Notes under the pieces: model-generated | Told to the model about the DNA's origin: nothing | Seen by the model: the letters and a program-made list of their open reading frames with translations, nothing else | Databases searched by the model: none | Part shown: in pieces, positions 20,349-45,169 of the stretch | How the letters are laid out: each line of letters begins with the position of its first letter | How positions within the stretch are numbered: the first letter of the stretch is position 1 | Program-made: the position numbers and the translations under genes | Assembly: GCF_008365275.1 (NCBI RefSeq) | Contig: NZ_CP043504.1 | Location: forward strand, 496,001 to 560,000 | From: Protaetiibacter larvae | GTDB taxonomy: Bacteria; Actinomycetota; Actinomycetes; Actinomycetales; Microbacteriaceae | Direction of reading: 5' to 3' | DNA length: 64,000 nucleotides

Positions 20349-22054
20349 GCCTCCCCTCCGGGAGTCATGGCGCGGCTGGAGCTACGACCCGGCGGCGGGA
20401 GGCGTTTCCCCCGCCCCGTGGTCGCGGCTCCAGCCGCGCCATGAACGGCGAGTTGTTGCTGCTGTTGCTGCTGGTCGTGCCGCGGGGCGTCCTGCGGGTT
20501 GTGGTCCTGGATGTGGCGCTCGCCGAGCACCGGGATGCTCGAGGTGACCGCCGCCTGCTCCGCCACGAGGCCCTGGATGTTGTGGTCGTGCGAGAACAGC
20601 GGATCGCTGCCGACGATCCAGGTGTCCTTCGACCCGCCGCCCTGCGAGCTGTTCACCACCAGCTGGCCTTCGGGCAGCGCCACCCGGGTGAGCCCGCCCG
20701 GCAGCACCCAGATGTCCGATCCGTCGTTGACCGCGAAGGGTCGCAGGTCGGCATGCCGGGGGCGCAGTCCGTCGTCGACGAGGGTGGGGATGGTCGACAG
20801 CTGCACGACGGGCTGCGCGATCCAGCCGCGGGGATCGCGCTGCAGGCGGGTGCGCAGCTGGTCGAGCTCCTCGCGCGAGGCGTCCGGGCCCACCACGAGC
20901 CCCTTGCCGCCCGATCCGTCGACGGGCTTCACGACGAGTTCGTCGAGCCGGTCGAGCACCTCCTCGAGCGCCCCGGCCTCCTCGAGCCGCCAGGTCTGCA
21001 CGTTGGGCAGCAGCGGCTCCTCGGAGAGGTAGTAGCGGATGAGGTCGGGCAGGTAGGTGTAGACGAGCTTGTCGTCGGCCACACCGTTGCCGATCGCGTT
21101 CGCGATCGTCACGTTGCCGAGACGCGCGGCGAGCATGAGGCCCGGCGAGCCCAGCATCGAGTCGGCACGGAACTGCAGCGGGTCGAGGAACTCGTCGTCG
21201 ACGCGGCGGTAGATGACATCCACGCGGGTGGGTCCGGCGGTGGTGCGCATGTACACCCTGCCGCCGGAGCAGAACAGGTCGCGCCCCTCCACGAGCTCGA
21301 CCCCCATGAGCCGCGCGAGCAGGGTGTGCTCGAAGTACGCCGAGTTGTAGACGCCGGGGGTGAGCACGACGACGGTCGGGTCCTCGACCCCCTCCGGCGC
21401 CGAAGCCCGCAGCGCCCCCAGCAGCCGCTGCGGGTAGTCGCCGACCGGACGCACGCGCATCGAGACGAACAGCTCGGGCAGCGTCTGCGCCATGACGCGA
21501 CGGTTCGAGATCACATACGAGACGCCGCTCGGCACCCGCACGTTGTCCTCGAGCACCCGCCAGGTGCCCGCCTCGTCGCGGATGAGGTCGATGCCCGACA
21601 CCTGGATGCGCACGCCGTTCGCCGGTTCGATCCCCGCGGCCTCCCGGTGGAAGTGGCTGGACGAGCTGATGAGTCCCGCCGGGATCACCCCGTCGAGCAC
21701 GGCCCGCTGGGTGCCGTAGACGTCCGAGAGGAAGGCCTCGAGCGCCTTCACCCGCTGCTTCACCCCCGCCTCGACGCCCGCCCATTCGGCCTGCTCGATG
21801 ACGCGCGGCACGGCATCCAACGGGAACGGACGCTCCTCGCCGGCGAAGTCGAAGGTGACGCCCTGGGCGAGGTAGGAGTTGGCGAGCGCCTCGGTGCGAC
21901 CGCGCAGCTCGTCCTGCGTCATGCGGGCGAGGGCCGCGTGGATCTCGCGATACGGATCGCGCGCGGCATCCGCCGAGGCGAACATCTCATCCCACGGCGG
22001 AGAGCCTTTTCGCCGCGTCGCGACGGCGCCGTAGCCCTCGAACAGGTCGCCCAT
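20345..22054 (-). CDS. Circularly permuted ATP-grasp protein with repeat-encoded tail
   Basis: 569-residue protein of the circularly permuted type 2 ATP-grasp family (former DUF404/DUF407), predicted to ligate an amino acid or small peptide by an acyl-phosphate. Family blocks in order: SSSHFHREAAGI, GIDLIRDEAGTWRVLEDNVRVPSGVSY (read in part), TPGVYNSAYFEHTLLA, VVKPVDGSGGKGLVVGP (nucleotide-binding), SQGGGSKDTWI near the end. After HDQQQQQQQL the tail is unlike the family. About 26 codons from 20443 down to 20366 are one arm-to-arm copy of a 78-nt hairpin found again at 45092-45169. The stop overlaps the alpha-E start. Start ATG 22054; GGGAATAGG just upstream could be a -10 with a very short leader. 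Confidence 0.92.
   Translation of the reverse strand: MGDLFEGYGAVATRRKGSPPWDEMFASADAARDPYREIHAALARMTQDELRGRTEALANSYLAQGVTFDFAGEERPFPLDAVPRVIEQAEWAGVEAGVKQRVKALEAFLSDVYGTQRAVLDGVIPAGLISSSSHFHREAAGIEPANGVRIQVSGIDLIRDEAGTWRVLEDNVRVPSGVSYVISNRRVMAQTLPELFVSMRVRPVGDYPQRLLGALRASAPEGVEDPTVVVLTPGVYNSAYFEHTLLARLMGVELVEGRDLFCSGGRVYMRTTAGPTRVDVIYRRVDDEFLDPLQFRADSMLGSPGLMLAARLGNVTIANAIGNGVADDKLVYTYLPDLIRYYLSEEPLLPNVQTWRLEEAGALEEVLDRLDELVVKPVDGSGGKGLVVGPDASREELDQLRTRLQRDPRGWIAQPVVQLSTIPTLVDDGLRPRHADLRPFAVNDGSDIWVLPGGLTRVALPEGQLVVNSSQGGGSKDTWIVGSDPLFSHDHNIQGLVAEQAAVTSSIPVLGERHIQDHNPQDAPRHDQQQQQQQLAVHGAAGAATTGRGKRLPPPGRSSSRAMTPGGEA
20366..20443. repeat. 78-nt hairpin element, copy A, inside a reading frame
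   Basis: Perfect 17-bp arms, CATGGCGCGGCTGGAGC at 20366-20382 and its reverse complement at 20427-20443, enclose a 44-base GC-rich centre. The element is exactly as long as copy B (45092-45169). Its centre is about 80% identical to copy B read in the opposite orientation. This copy lies in the last codons of the ATP-grasp gene, ending 18 bases before that gene's stop. Confidence 0.9.
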
Positions 22055-22109
22055 GGCGGGAGCCTATTCCCGGGATGTTGCGCCGTTGTTTCGCGCGCCG
22101 CGGCTTAAA

Positions 22110-22206
22110 GGGAAACGGCCCGCCGAGGGGGATCGGACGGGCCGTCTCGCGGAGCAGGGGGTGCTCCGGGGGATCTCCCACGGAGGCGACCACCACAGCG
22201 CCTCCG
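22110..22206 (-). other. Three consecutive hairpins, possible small RNA or leader ending in a U-tract
   Basis: Read on the minus strand, three stems follow each other: 8 bp (22199-22206 with 22181-22188), 6 bp (22162-22167 with 22151-22156), and 8 bp (22138-22145 with 22115-22122). The last is followed by GTTTCCCTTT, so it resembles an intrinsic terminator. It lies between the ATP-grasp start (22054) and the iron box of hmuT. A 40-codon ATG frame (22225 down to about 22106) overlaps it, but nothing supports its translation. An unannotated short transcript is possible; confidence is low. Confidence 0.35.
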
Positions 22207-22281
22207 CGGGAATGCACTCATGGTATGCAGGGAGTCTGGGCAATCGCCCCATGCGGGCTGAGAGATGCTGAGCGCCCGAAC

Positions 22282-22300
22282 TCAGGTAAGGCTATCCTCA
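22282..22300. promoter_or_regulatory. DtxR/IdeR-type iron box before hmuT
   Basis: TCAGGTAAGGCTATCCTCA matches 15 of 19 bases of the iron-box consensus TTAGGTTAGGCTAACCTAA, including the AGG-n-TA symmetrical core. It overlaps a TATCCT -10-like hexamer (22293-22298) and ends 21 bases before the GTG start of hmuT. A Fe(II)-loaded DtxR/IdeR repressor should block transcription in iron-replete cells. Confidence 0.8.
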
Positions 22301-22321
22301 TTTCTCGCGTACAGTGGGGGG

Positions 22322-43990: not shown

Positions 43991-44006
43991 TGCGCCCTCC
44001 TCTCCC

Positions 44007-44066
44007 CGAAAGTACGTACTTCTGGGGGGAAATGGGGCGTTTCGGGCGCAGAAGTACGTACTTTCG
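44007..44066. repeat. 60-nt hairpin element, copy 3, perfect 18-bp arms
   Basis: CGAAAGTACGTACTTCTG at 44007-44024 and its exact reverse complement at 44049-44066. Each arm contains the perfect palindrome AAGTACGTACTT, so alternative intra-arm pairing is possible. It sits 16 bases after the fadD stop and 18 bases before the LLM gene. Confidence 0.93.
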
Positions 44067-44084
44067 CGGAGAAGGAGGAGGCGC

Positions 44085-45080
44085 ATGAGGTTCGGGATGT
44101 TTGTGCCGCAGGGCTGGCGGCACGACCTGGTGGGCATCGACCCGGCCGCGCAATGGGCGACGATGAGCGCGCTCGCGCAGGCCGCGGATGCCGGACCGTG
44201 GGAGTCGCTGTGGGTCTACGACCACTTCCACACGGTGCCGGTGCCGAGCGACGAGGCCACTCACGAGGCATGGACGCTCATGTCGGCGTTCGCGGCGACC
44301 ACCTCGCGCATCCGCCTCGGCCAGATGTGCACGTGCATGAGCTACCGGAATCCGGCCTACCTCGCGAAGGTCGCGGCCACCGTCGATCTCATCTCGGGCG
44401 GCCGGGTGGAGATGGGCATCGGGGCCGGCTGGTACGAGCACGAGTGGCGCGCCTACGGCTACGGCTTCCCGCGCGCGGGCGTGCGACTCGGGATGCTGCG
44501 GGAGGGCGTCGAGATCATGCACCAGGCGTGGACGACCGGCGAAGCCACCCTCGACGGCGAGCACTACCAGGTCTCGGGGGCGCGGGTGCGGCCGCTGCCG
44601 CTGCAGGAGGGCGGCATCCCGCTGTGGATCGCGGGCGGCGGCGAGAAGGTGACGCTCAAGATCGCGGCGCAGTACGCGCGGTACACGAACTTCTCGGCCA
44701 ACGACCTCGACGAGTTCGTGCACAAGAGCGCGCTGCTGCGGGAGCACTGCGCCGAGCTGGGAACCGACTTCTCGGCGATCACCCGGTCGGGCAACTTTAA
44801 CACGGTGGTGGCGCCGACCGAGGCCGAGGTGCGCAGCCGCATCGACACGATCGAGTCGCGGGTCGAGCCGTACCTCGGGGAGCAGGGGGCCGCCGCTTTC
44901 GTGCGCGAGTACCGTGACGGCTCGGCCGCCTGCGTCGGCACCCCCGAGCAGGTGATCGAGCGCCTGCAGGCTCGCCGCGACGCGGGCCTTGGCTATGCGA
45001 TCCACTACTTCCCCGAGGCCGCCTACGACCGCTCGGGAATCGACCTCTTTGAGCGCGAGGTCATCCCCGCTCTCCTCTAG
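44085..45080 (+). CDS. LLM-class F420-dependent oxidoreductase
   Basis: 331-residue luciferase-like TIM-barrel enzyme. MRFGMFVPQGWRHDLVGID, WVYDHFHTVPVP, LGQMCTCMSYRNPAYLAKVA, GIGAGWYEHEWRAYGYGFP and IPLWIAGGGEKVTLKIAAQYA match the F420-dependent branch found in actinobacteria. Substrate unknown. ATG start at 44085 with GGAGGAGG upstream. It is enclosed by two different repeat hairpins: the 60-nt type before it and the 78-nt type after it. Confidence 0.88.
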   Translation: MRFGMFVPQGWRHDLVGIDPAAQWATMSALAQAADAGPWESLWVYDHFHTVPVPSDEATHEAWTLMSAFAATTSRIRLGQMCTCMSYRNPAYLAKVAATVDLISGGRVEMGIGAGWYEHEWRAYGYGFPRAGVRLGMLREGVEIMHQAWTTGEATLDGEHYQVSGARVRPLPLQEGGIPLWIAGGGEKVTLKIAAQYARYTNFSANDLDEFVHKSALLREHCAELGTDFSAITRSGNFNTVVAPTEAEVRSRIDTIESRVEPYLGEQGAAAFVREYRDGSAACVGTPEQVIERLQARRDAGLGYAIHYFPEAAYDRSGIDLFEREVIPALL

Positions 45081-45091
45081 CCTCGATTGTT

Positions 45092-45169
45092 CATGGCGCA
45101 GCTGGAGCCGTGACCCGGCGGCGGGGGAAACGCCTCCCGCCGCGAGGTCGTAGCTCCAGCCGCGCCATG
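45092..45169. repeat. 78-nt hairpin element, copy B
   Basis: Arms 45092-45108 and 45153-45169 pair over 17 bp with one mismatch. The centre is the reverse complement of copy A's centre (20383-20426) with a few changes, so the two copies are in opposite orientation. It begins 11 bases after the LLM oxidoreductase stop. Confidence 0.9.

Follow-up and report, generated by a model that had tools for sequence, protein, structure and literature searches.

The question raised by the locus examined here is why palindromes of unrelated sequence should occupy the same position relative to genes. The locus is a 64,000-nucleotide (nt) stretch of Protaetiibacter larvae DNA (the window), corresponding to positions 496001-560000 of a genome that consists of a single contig of 2,557,894 bases. 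A first-pass annotation had described seven hairpin units in the window, belonging to three families termed here A, B and C, as sharing one placement rule at gene 3' ends. Family A elements are 80 nt long with arms TCATGGCGCGGCTGGAGC, family B elements 62 nt with arms GTGGTGCGGTTTCGGCC, and family C elements about 70 nt with arms CCCCGAAAGTACGTACTTC. Searches of the genome returned 40 A, 25 B and 17 C places, and at least 41, 25 and 16 sites, respectively, were then placed against genes, the A number being a minimum from the best 40 of 69 candidates scored, and one C place being dropped because its BLAST E value exceeded 1e-4. With at least 82 placed copies between them, A, B and C are high-copy, dispersed, intergenic palindromes.

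Placement of the hairpins behind stop codons

The position of these copies relative to genes is strongly biased. Fifty-eight of the 82 have a facing stop codon no more than 10 nt away, compared with 9.0% of random intergenic points (binomial p about 1e-41), and 64 have one no more than 15 nt away (null 12.4%), the null being a single set of 32,714 intergenic insertion points from a 464-kb sample of the genome that comprises the window and 20 further stretches. Gene starts and ends were taken from our own hexamer-based caller and no annotation was used; 5 of the 58 (and of the 64) overlap a called gene end by 1-35 nt, and these, together with some copies called inside genes or between divergent genes, are possible gene-calling errors. 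Three A copies called inside genes were scored as misses, and the B copy at 41133 was classed by hand, the caller's start having been too far upstream. Gaps between divergent genes hold 7/82 copies against a null of 30%, and 26/82 lie between convergent genes, with both sides within 15 nt in 16 of the 26. In tandem gaps the stop is nearer than the following start codon for 21/24 A, 11/14 B and 6/8 C elements, the median distance being 1-5.5 nt on the stop side and 22.5-53.5 nt on the start side. Among 17 ordinary short-loop hairpins of the sample that face a stop, 3 are within 10 nt of it (Mann-Whitney p 1.6e-5), and for a long-loop repeat, family D, the figure is 1/21 placed copies.

Eight relatives, labelled G001 to G008, make up with P. 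larvae a genus set of nine genomes; G003 is Protaetiibacter mangrovi, G004 Micrococcales bacterium 72-143 and G006 Homoserinibacter sp. GY 40078. A congener family, G, behaves as A, B and C do: in a sample from G008 and G004, 21 of 25 placed copies are within 10 nt of a stop, the 20 regions examined being top BLAST matches plus closely spaced pairs as opposed to a random draw. A 26th copy (L320), with a gap of 13 nt, was missed by the placement pattern. The first base of the G element completes a TAG stop in 13/25 placed copies. Supply of the stop by B or C themselves was considered and rejected, since their distal flanks look unconserved; unlike G, they abut stops only. Hence the proposal of one placement rule for several sequence-unrelated families is upheld for A, B and C here and for G in congeners, and genome-wide copies show the strong 3'-end enrichment whose absence the first-pass annotation had named as evidence against its rule.

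All seven window units were confirmed as genuine inverted repeats at their reported positions near same-strand stops, six of them with gaps of 0, 1, 5, 10, 10 and 11 nt and one located 20 nt before its stop. The last is the 80-nt A palindrome at 20365-20444 (minus strand), which is inserted in frame into gene 20345-22054, encoding a circularly permuted ATP-grasp protein, at its variable C-terminal end. The second A copy (45091-45169, plus strand) is 10 nt past the stop of a luciferase-like monooxygenase gene (44097-45080). The 62-nt B palindrome at 41133-41194 (plus strand) directly follows the stop of an ABC-2 transporter gene (40032-41132), and another B copy (35869-35932, core 35869-35924, minus strand) is 5 nt past the stop of an FMN reductase-like gene (35930-36529). 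Family C is represented at 26131-26199 (minus strand, 1 nt past the stop of gene 26201-27229), at 27251-27321 (minus strand, 11 nt past the stop of gene 27333-28562) and at 44001-44072 (plus strand), 10 nt past the stop of an AMP-binding, acyl-CoA synthetase-like gene (42290-43990), with an orthologous C copy in G002. The protein encoded by 42290-43990 has, over the best segment, 91% identity to its counterpart in 72-143, 90% in P. mangrovi and 87% in GY 40078. The window gave no Rfam match at gathering score.

Hairpins are in excess of chance: 43 with a stem score of at least 14 were found in the 464 kb, compared with 1 in one block-shuffled copy. For the elements themselves, the predicted stabilities have medians of -43 to -65 kcal/mol. 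In an alignment of 22 of the 25 B copies, 24 pairs are formed, 96.6% of cells are paired and 15 cells are changed on both sides. The B covariation score (0.073) compares with 0.037 in shuffles, none of 500 being as high, and with at most 0.035 when the pairing is slid. Paired changes are seen also in D stems, where the arms vary in step (AAATC/GATTT, ATCTC/GAGAT, AAGTC/GACTT), and the orthologous C copies of P. larvae and G002 differ in their arms with pairing kept. The stems of B and D thus stay paired, and some of the changes are compensatory. At tandem sites, A is biased in orientation relative to the upstream gene (19 versus 5, p 0.007). Inverted copying of flanks, i.e. hairpin growth by template switching, had been hinted at by the flanks of the C copy at 44001, and no clear sign of it was found, the mean outward pairing past the edge of A, B and C elements being about 0.34, with no shuffled level to set against it. 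An A' subfamily was also observed, in which the outer arms are unpaired and one arm is swapped for GTTTCTCCCGCC or its like, with alternative foldings that include an inner hairpin (L107:1501-1576, L108:1501-1573, L113:1501-1574 and L114:1501-1561).

None of 98 transcribed 10-nt tails behind A, B and C contains TTT, so that the U-tract of an intrinsic terminator is lacking, as the first-pass annotation had remarked, and a reading as plain U-tract terminators was rejected. Promoter-like boxes are frequent further downstream. A TANNNT box is present in 26/38 tandem gaps (12-120 nt) behind A, B and C, versus 31/89 hairpin-free tandem gaps and 12% of shuffles; within the last 45 nt the counts are 25/38 and 24/89 (p 6e-5). 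Of 27 boxes, 14 begin precisely 12 nt upstream of the start codon and a further five 13-15 nt upstream of it, a spacing that fits the leaderless promoter of actinobacteria. From stop to next start, element included, the distance is roughly 95-125 nt (summed medians). An ordinary terminator-like hairpin (35816-35858, minus strand) lies downstream of the B copy at 35869 and has counterparts in G002, G003 and G006. At 35804-35858 the tail of this hairpin, TATTCT, doubles as a -10 box 12 nt ahead of an ATG, such that terminator and leaderless promoter may overlap; a like layout was seen by eye in the same three congeners.

Mobility and turnover in the genus

The A, B and C elements are mobile, or once were. 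GY 40078 has an empty site for the B copy at 41133-41194 that is exact to the base (TGAG-AATGG versus TGAG-[element]-AATGG), with no target duplication; three further sites were too diverged to read. Matches to A, B and C are patchy, being present in seven of the nine genus genomes: at least 82 in P. larvae, at least 64 each in G002 and G008, at least 32 in G001, at least 19 in G005, at least one each in G003 and G004, and none in G006 or G007 (here and for the families below, matches on both strands were counted and at most the best 40 candidates per genome scored). A family-wide search of 150 genomes from 85 genera, scoring the best 5 candidates per genome, gave matches in P. larvae and G008 only (2/150 genomes, 1/85 genera); since scoring was shallow and only three genomes were drawn from the genus, absence outside the genus is provisional.

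Congeners carry families with no match in P. larvae, namely G (58 nt, GTTCCCGTTCCGCGTG) and H (65 nt, TCGCTGAGTGGTCGGTTTCTGGCC). A query combining G, H and a hairpin from G001 found at least 73 matches in G002, 74 in G004, 16 in G005, 80 in G008 and 2 in G001, and none in P. larvae, G003, G006 or G007. At least 19 G copies in G008 are 97-100% identical to the query, which looks like recent copying. The arms of H contain TGA, and in one H-like copy in G002 both convergent stops lie within the arms; B and H may be one superfamily, their arms being alike by eye.

The first-pass annotation had suggested looking for a cognate transposase-like gene, for example TnpA-REP (REP, repetitive extragenic palindrome), or a nuclease gene. 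Searches with PF01797, the Y1 transposase domain of the REP-associated tyrosine transposase (RAYT)/IS200 family, were negative in all nine genus genomes and positive in 5/14 control genomes, and a RAYT-driven REP reading was rejected. The TnpB-type domain PF07282 gave nothing over cut-off in the nine genomes and one weak match, in G007. In G008 and G004, 82 of 83 G-arm matches (allowing one mismatch) sit in elements of about 58 nt, and therefore no parent insertion sequence (IS) bounded by G arms is seen there, a search that covered G, as distinct from A, B and C. As far as that search extends, the other outcome that had been held to count against the annotation, namely that all copies derive from one known IS-derived miniature inverted-repeat transposable element (MITE), was not found.

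In some cases unrelated hairpins occupy the same orthologous gene end in different species. Behind the orthologue of 40032-41132 there is a B element in P. larvae, a G element in G008 and 72-143 and a third hairpin in G001, while the same end is empty in G003, G007 and GY 40078 and, by hairpin search, in G002. In an unbiased sample, congeners carry a hairpin in 17/49 comparisons where the P. larvae end has one versus 5/105 where it does not; counted per gene end, the figures are 9/11 versus 3/34 (p 1.2e-5), and an unrelated congener hairpin is present at 6 of the 11 hairpin ends of P. larvae (p 0.003). At loci picked for carrying an element the contrast is weaker (8/25 versus 2/24). Six hairpins were found in six genomes at the end of gene 35930-36529, where P. 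larvae carries, besides B, an ordinary hairpin resembling that of G002, G003 and G006; because the ordinary hairpin is kept, B was added at this end as opposed to replacing it.

Relation to known repeats and long-loop families

The claim that no such system had been described does not hold, since REPs share the placement habit and the supply of TAG (PMC3733652) and REPs within 15 nt of a stop are reported to stall ribosomes in Escherichia coli (PMC12306157). According to the available portion of PMC3733652, REPs of REP-rich genomes are found mainly between convergent and unidirectional open reading frames (ORFs), and for most convergent ones the ORF 3' ends on either side are less than 20 bp away; GTAG REPs often supply a TAG stop, and several families may share one genome. 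The elements described here are like REPs, in the parts of PMC3733652 and PMC2817692 available, in copy number, palindromic structure, intergenic location, number of families, enrichment in convergent and unidirectional gaps, proximity to 3' ends and TAG supply. They differ in length (58-80 nt against 20-40 bp) and in the REP tag GTAG/CGTC, which is absent by eye from the ends of A, B and C, many A copies having an internal GTAG; the ends of G read WTAG in 34/50 cases and GTAG in 2/50, also by eye. REPs are also RAYT-associated, whereas no RAYT/Y1 transposase was found in this genus set. Accordingly, the elements are an untagged, longer, RAYT-less variant of REP and REPIN palindromes (REPINs being paired REPs in inverted orientation), their closest known kind. 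Their placement habit has precedents; they are set apart by tag, RAYT and length and by the way in which families unrelated to each other are exchanged at a single gene end.

A more specific parallel is provided by E. coli REPs less than 16 nt from a stop, which in the portion of PMC12306157 available are reported to cause ribosome stalling and a drop in translation; 446 of 4,072 predicted REPs are that near a stop, as were 260/496 in an earlier study cited there. The features shared are a stable hairpin no more than 15 nt from the stop and a proposed effect on the last ribosome, whereas the proportion within range (446/4,072 versus 64/82 here), the sequence and the organism differ. Stable stem-loops behind stops, some forming repeat families, are also described from 40 genomes (PMC1590033); their sequences are different, and the replacement of one family by an unrelated one at the same gene end does not feature in the portion of that account available. 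Uptake-sequence terminators of Neisseria and Pasteurellaceae, as presented in part of PMC1852404, are alike in that repeated inverted pairs mark the 3' ends of genes, in many cases between convergent ones. They differ in that arms here are rarely single and have no T-tail: inside versus outside known elements of the 464-kb sample, arm motifs number 7/1 for A, 12/2 for B, 3/0 for C and 9/0 for D, and both B motifs counted as outside are at the edge of L135, within a B element at 1250017. The rarity of solitary arms in the sample led to rejection of the uptake-sequence reading. A reading as integron attC sites is disfavoured by the dispersal of the sites among syntenic genes of the chromosome. 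Open-licence literature, at the level of titles and abstracts, gave no account of these families in Microbacteriaceae, which is weak evidence of absence.

A different architecture is shown by family D, in which two inverted 36-nt arms enclose a loop of about 50 nt in a REPIN-like arrangement, some copies having tandem half-units. The window copy (31339-31485, no strand assigned) is a double-arm repeat between convergent genes that breaks the stop-abutting rule; other sites are in L087, L092-L094, L097-L102, L121-L125 and elsewhere, and the 21 of 25 matched places that were set against genes are, as a family, not stop-abutting. Families E (CAGAAATGCAGGAG) and F (CGCAACTCAGGAG) have the same long-loop architecture. 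The window F copy, at 2667-2740 (minus strand), has a 40-nt loop, is 18 nt past the stop of gene 2759-4099 and likewise falls outside the rule; further E/F sites are L137:890-958 and 972-1041, L136:17724-17810, L131:17960-18047 and L134:6228-6309. G001 carries the E/F variants GTCGAAAATGCAGGAG and CTGTTGTGCAGGAA. REPINs (PMC3116915, available in part) are the comparator for D, E and F, being likewise dispersed with two inverted REP-like arms around a spacer; the differences are that no RAYT was found here and that D does not abut stops.

Two further repeats were noted. The hairpin TCCCGCGGCGGCGACCACCACAGCGCCGCCGCGGGA, or a close variant, occurs in all five congener stretches inspected (G001, G002, G003, G006 and G008; L261-L280), in four of them in a divergent gap, and is possibly a regulatory site. 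Another family, recognised by eye from GGTCTCGA(G/T)ACGC and GTCGAG(T/G)AG, is found at L131:15512-15621, L142:1217-1306 and L136:19879-19951, with similar sequences in Agromyces luteolus (L159:4366-4454) and G008.

Possible function and alternative explanations

The explanation that we favour, if by a slender balance, is that A, B, C and their counterparts are REP-like mobile palindromes kept behind stop codons, where they may act in RNA as 3'-end hairpins. Non-autonomous palindromes of 58-80 nt would copy around the genomes of the genus, moved by some enzyme other than a RAYT found in these genomes, and would persist almost only right behind stops. Once transcribed, the element would fold when the terminating ribosome leaves, giving a very stable hairpin in the 3' untranslated region that would mark the end of the upstream message by blocking 3'-to-5' exonucleases, would help to shield the leaderless promoter of the following gene and, in line with what is reported of E. 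coli REPs no more than 15 nt past a stop, may slow the last ribosomes. Different families might work equally well and so could replace one another at orthologous gene ends. Because promoter-like boxes lie downstream and there are precedents at the RNA level, such a 3'-end role, as exonuclease block, insulator and perhaps brake on the last ribosome, would be the most likely function, with roughly even chances of being right.

Several observations weigh against this explanation. Only 3 B pairs are doubly changed, a number reached in 50/500 shuffles, one column pair supplies 9 of the 15 doubly changed cells, and the copies share descent; pairs predicted by RNAalifold contain 4 doubly changed cells in C and none in A. 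The orientation bias of A is absent at tandem sites from B (9:4) and C (5:3). The A element at 20365-20444 is coding sequence, since it extends in frame the variable tail at the C-terminus of an ATP-grasp-like protein. The 11 P. larvae ends behind the co-occupancy figures include 7 A-C copies, two ends that have a single D repeat and a single G002 hairpin in common, one F and one weak hairpin, and the comparisons share ancestry. Co-occupancy as proof of function is further weakened by the B copy at 35869, which adjoins the ordinary hairpin shared with congeners, is redundant beside it and inflates the count. Some insertions lie elsewhere than at unit boundaries: at the site of B 41133 only 10-16 nt separate the flanking genes in G002, G003 and G006, and at that of C 44001 the genes overlap or abut in four of the five congeners set against P. 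larvae. No hairpin was detected at many of the orthologous empty sites, indicating that one is not required at those gene ends. Control gaps also peak at 12 nt (8/32), so the box represents a promoter type common in the genome and enriched behind elements, and the box signal is weaker for G, with TANNNT in only 6/15 tandem gaps in G008 and G004. The first-pass suggestion that the genome maintains the hairpins exceeds the data, given that they are patchy among congeners and that some are found within operons, next to an ordinary hairpin or as part of a coding tail.

Neutral tolerance is the main rival, because copies are also present where neighbouring genes are closely spaced, next to an ordinary hairpin and within a dispensable coding tail, and because some relatives have no elements. 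Under it, selfish palindromes would insert widely and selection would clear all but those in the slot between the stop and the promoter or Shine-Dalgarno sequence of the next gene, with no benefit to the host and no function in RNA. Patchiness across the genus, with no match in two of nine genomes, fits this account, as does the stop carried by G itself, which would make C-terminal insertions survivable. Positions in tandem gaps are nevertheless skewed to the first nucleotides past the stop, and convergent gaps, which need no promoter, are short too (16 of the 26 copies there have both sides within 15 nt); some pairing is also compensatory, an effect that shared descent or quasi-palindrome correction could mimic. 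On balance we regard neutral tolerance as a serious, if less probable, rival.

The remaining alternatives are considered to be less probable. Hairpin-only terminators of an actinobacterial, U-less kind that spread by copying would account for the strength and 3' location of the hairpins, the 26/82 copies between convergent genes and the promoter-like box downstream. Yet no tail of 98 contains TTT, some copies lie between closely spaced genes, and the 64/82 copies within 15 nt of a stop are in the range where ribosomes repress a terminator in E. coli. In that system, as set out in the available part of PMC4824070, ribosomes repress a terminator a few nt past the stop almost fully, and efficiency is at its maximum beyond 27 nt. 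The lack of a U-tract, and a distance smaller than the E. coli system would demand, make plain intrinsic termination unlikely, and we judge the U-less version improbable. Stalling of the terminating ribosome by hairpins near the stop, such that the elements would serve as translation dampeners, agrees with the 64/82 copies within 15 nt and with the down-regulation reported for REPs less than 16 nt from a stop (PMC12306157, portion available); dampening alone, which on the present analysis seems very improbable, would predict neither the promoter signal downstream nor the enrichment between convergent genes. Multiple copies, terminal inverted repeats and patchy distribution would also suit IS-derived MITEs whose arms a transposase reads as terminal inverted repeats, but this is scarcely credible given that 82/83 G arms in G008 and G004 (for G only) lie in elements of about 58 nt, with no longer arm-bounded element, and that the exact empty site has no target duplication.

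REPs are usually explained by RAYTs. Here there is REP-like placement with no RAYT found, and one family has apparently been freshly copied, so that in these RAYT-less genomes either another enzyme moves the elements or the elements outlive their mover. More tentatively, with the odds against it in our view, the hairpin explanation may extend to a genus-level system of interchangeable mobile hairpins, with a non-RAYT mover and targeting to, or selection at, the position just past stops, in which several unrelated families, G even supplying the stop codon, would substitute for one another at orthologous gene ends, and in which message ends, in compact genomes with leaderless promoters, would be built from mobile parts. 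A set of close species with empty, filled and differently filled gene ends makes the effects of stop-proximal hairpins on mRNA 3' ends, on translation and on leaderless promoters downstream directly testable, and the elements are a useful new test case for the evolution of gene ends.

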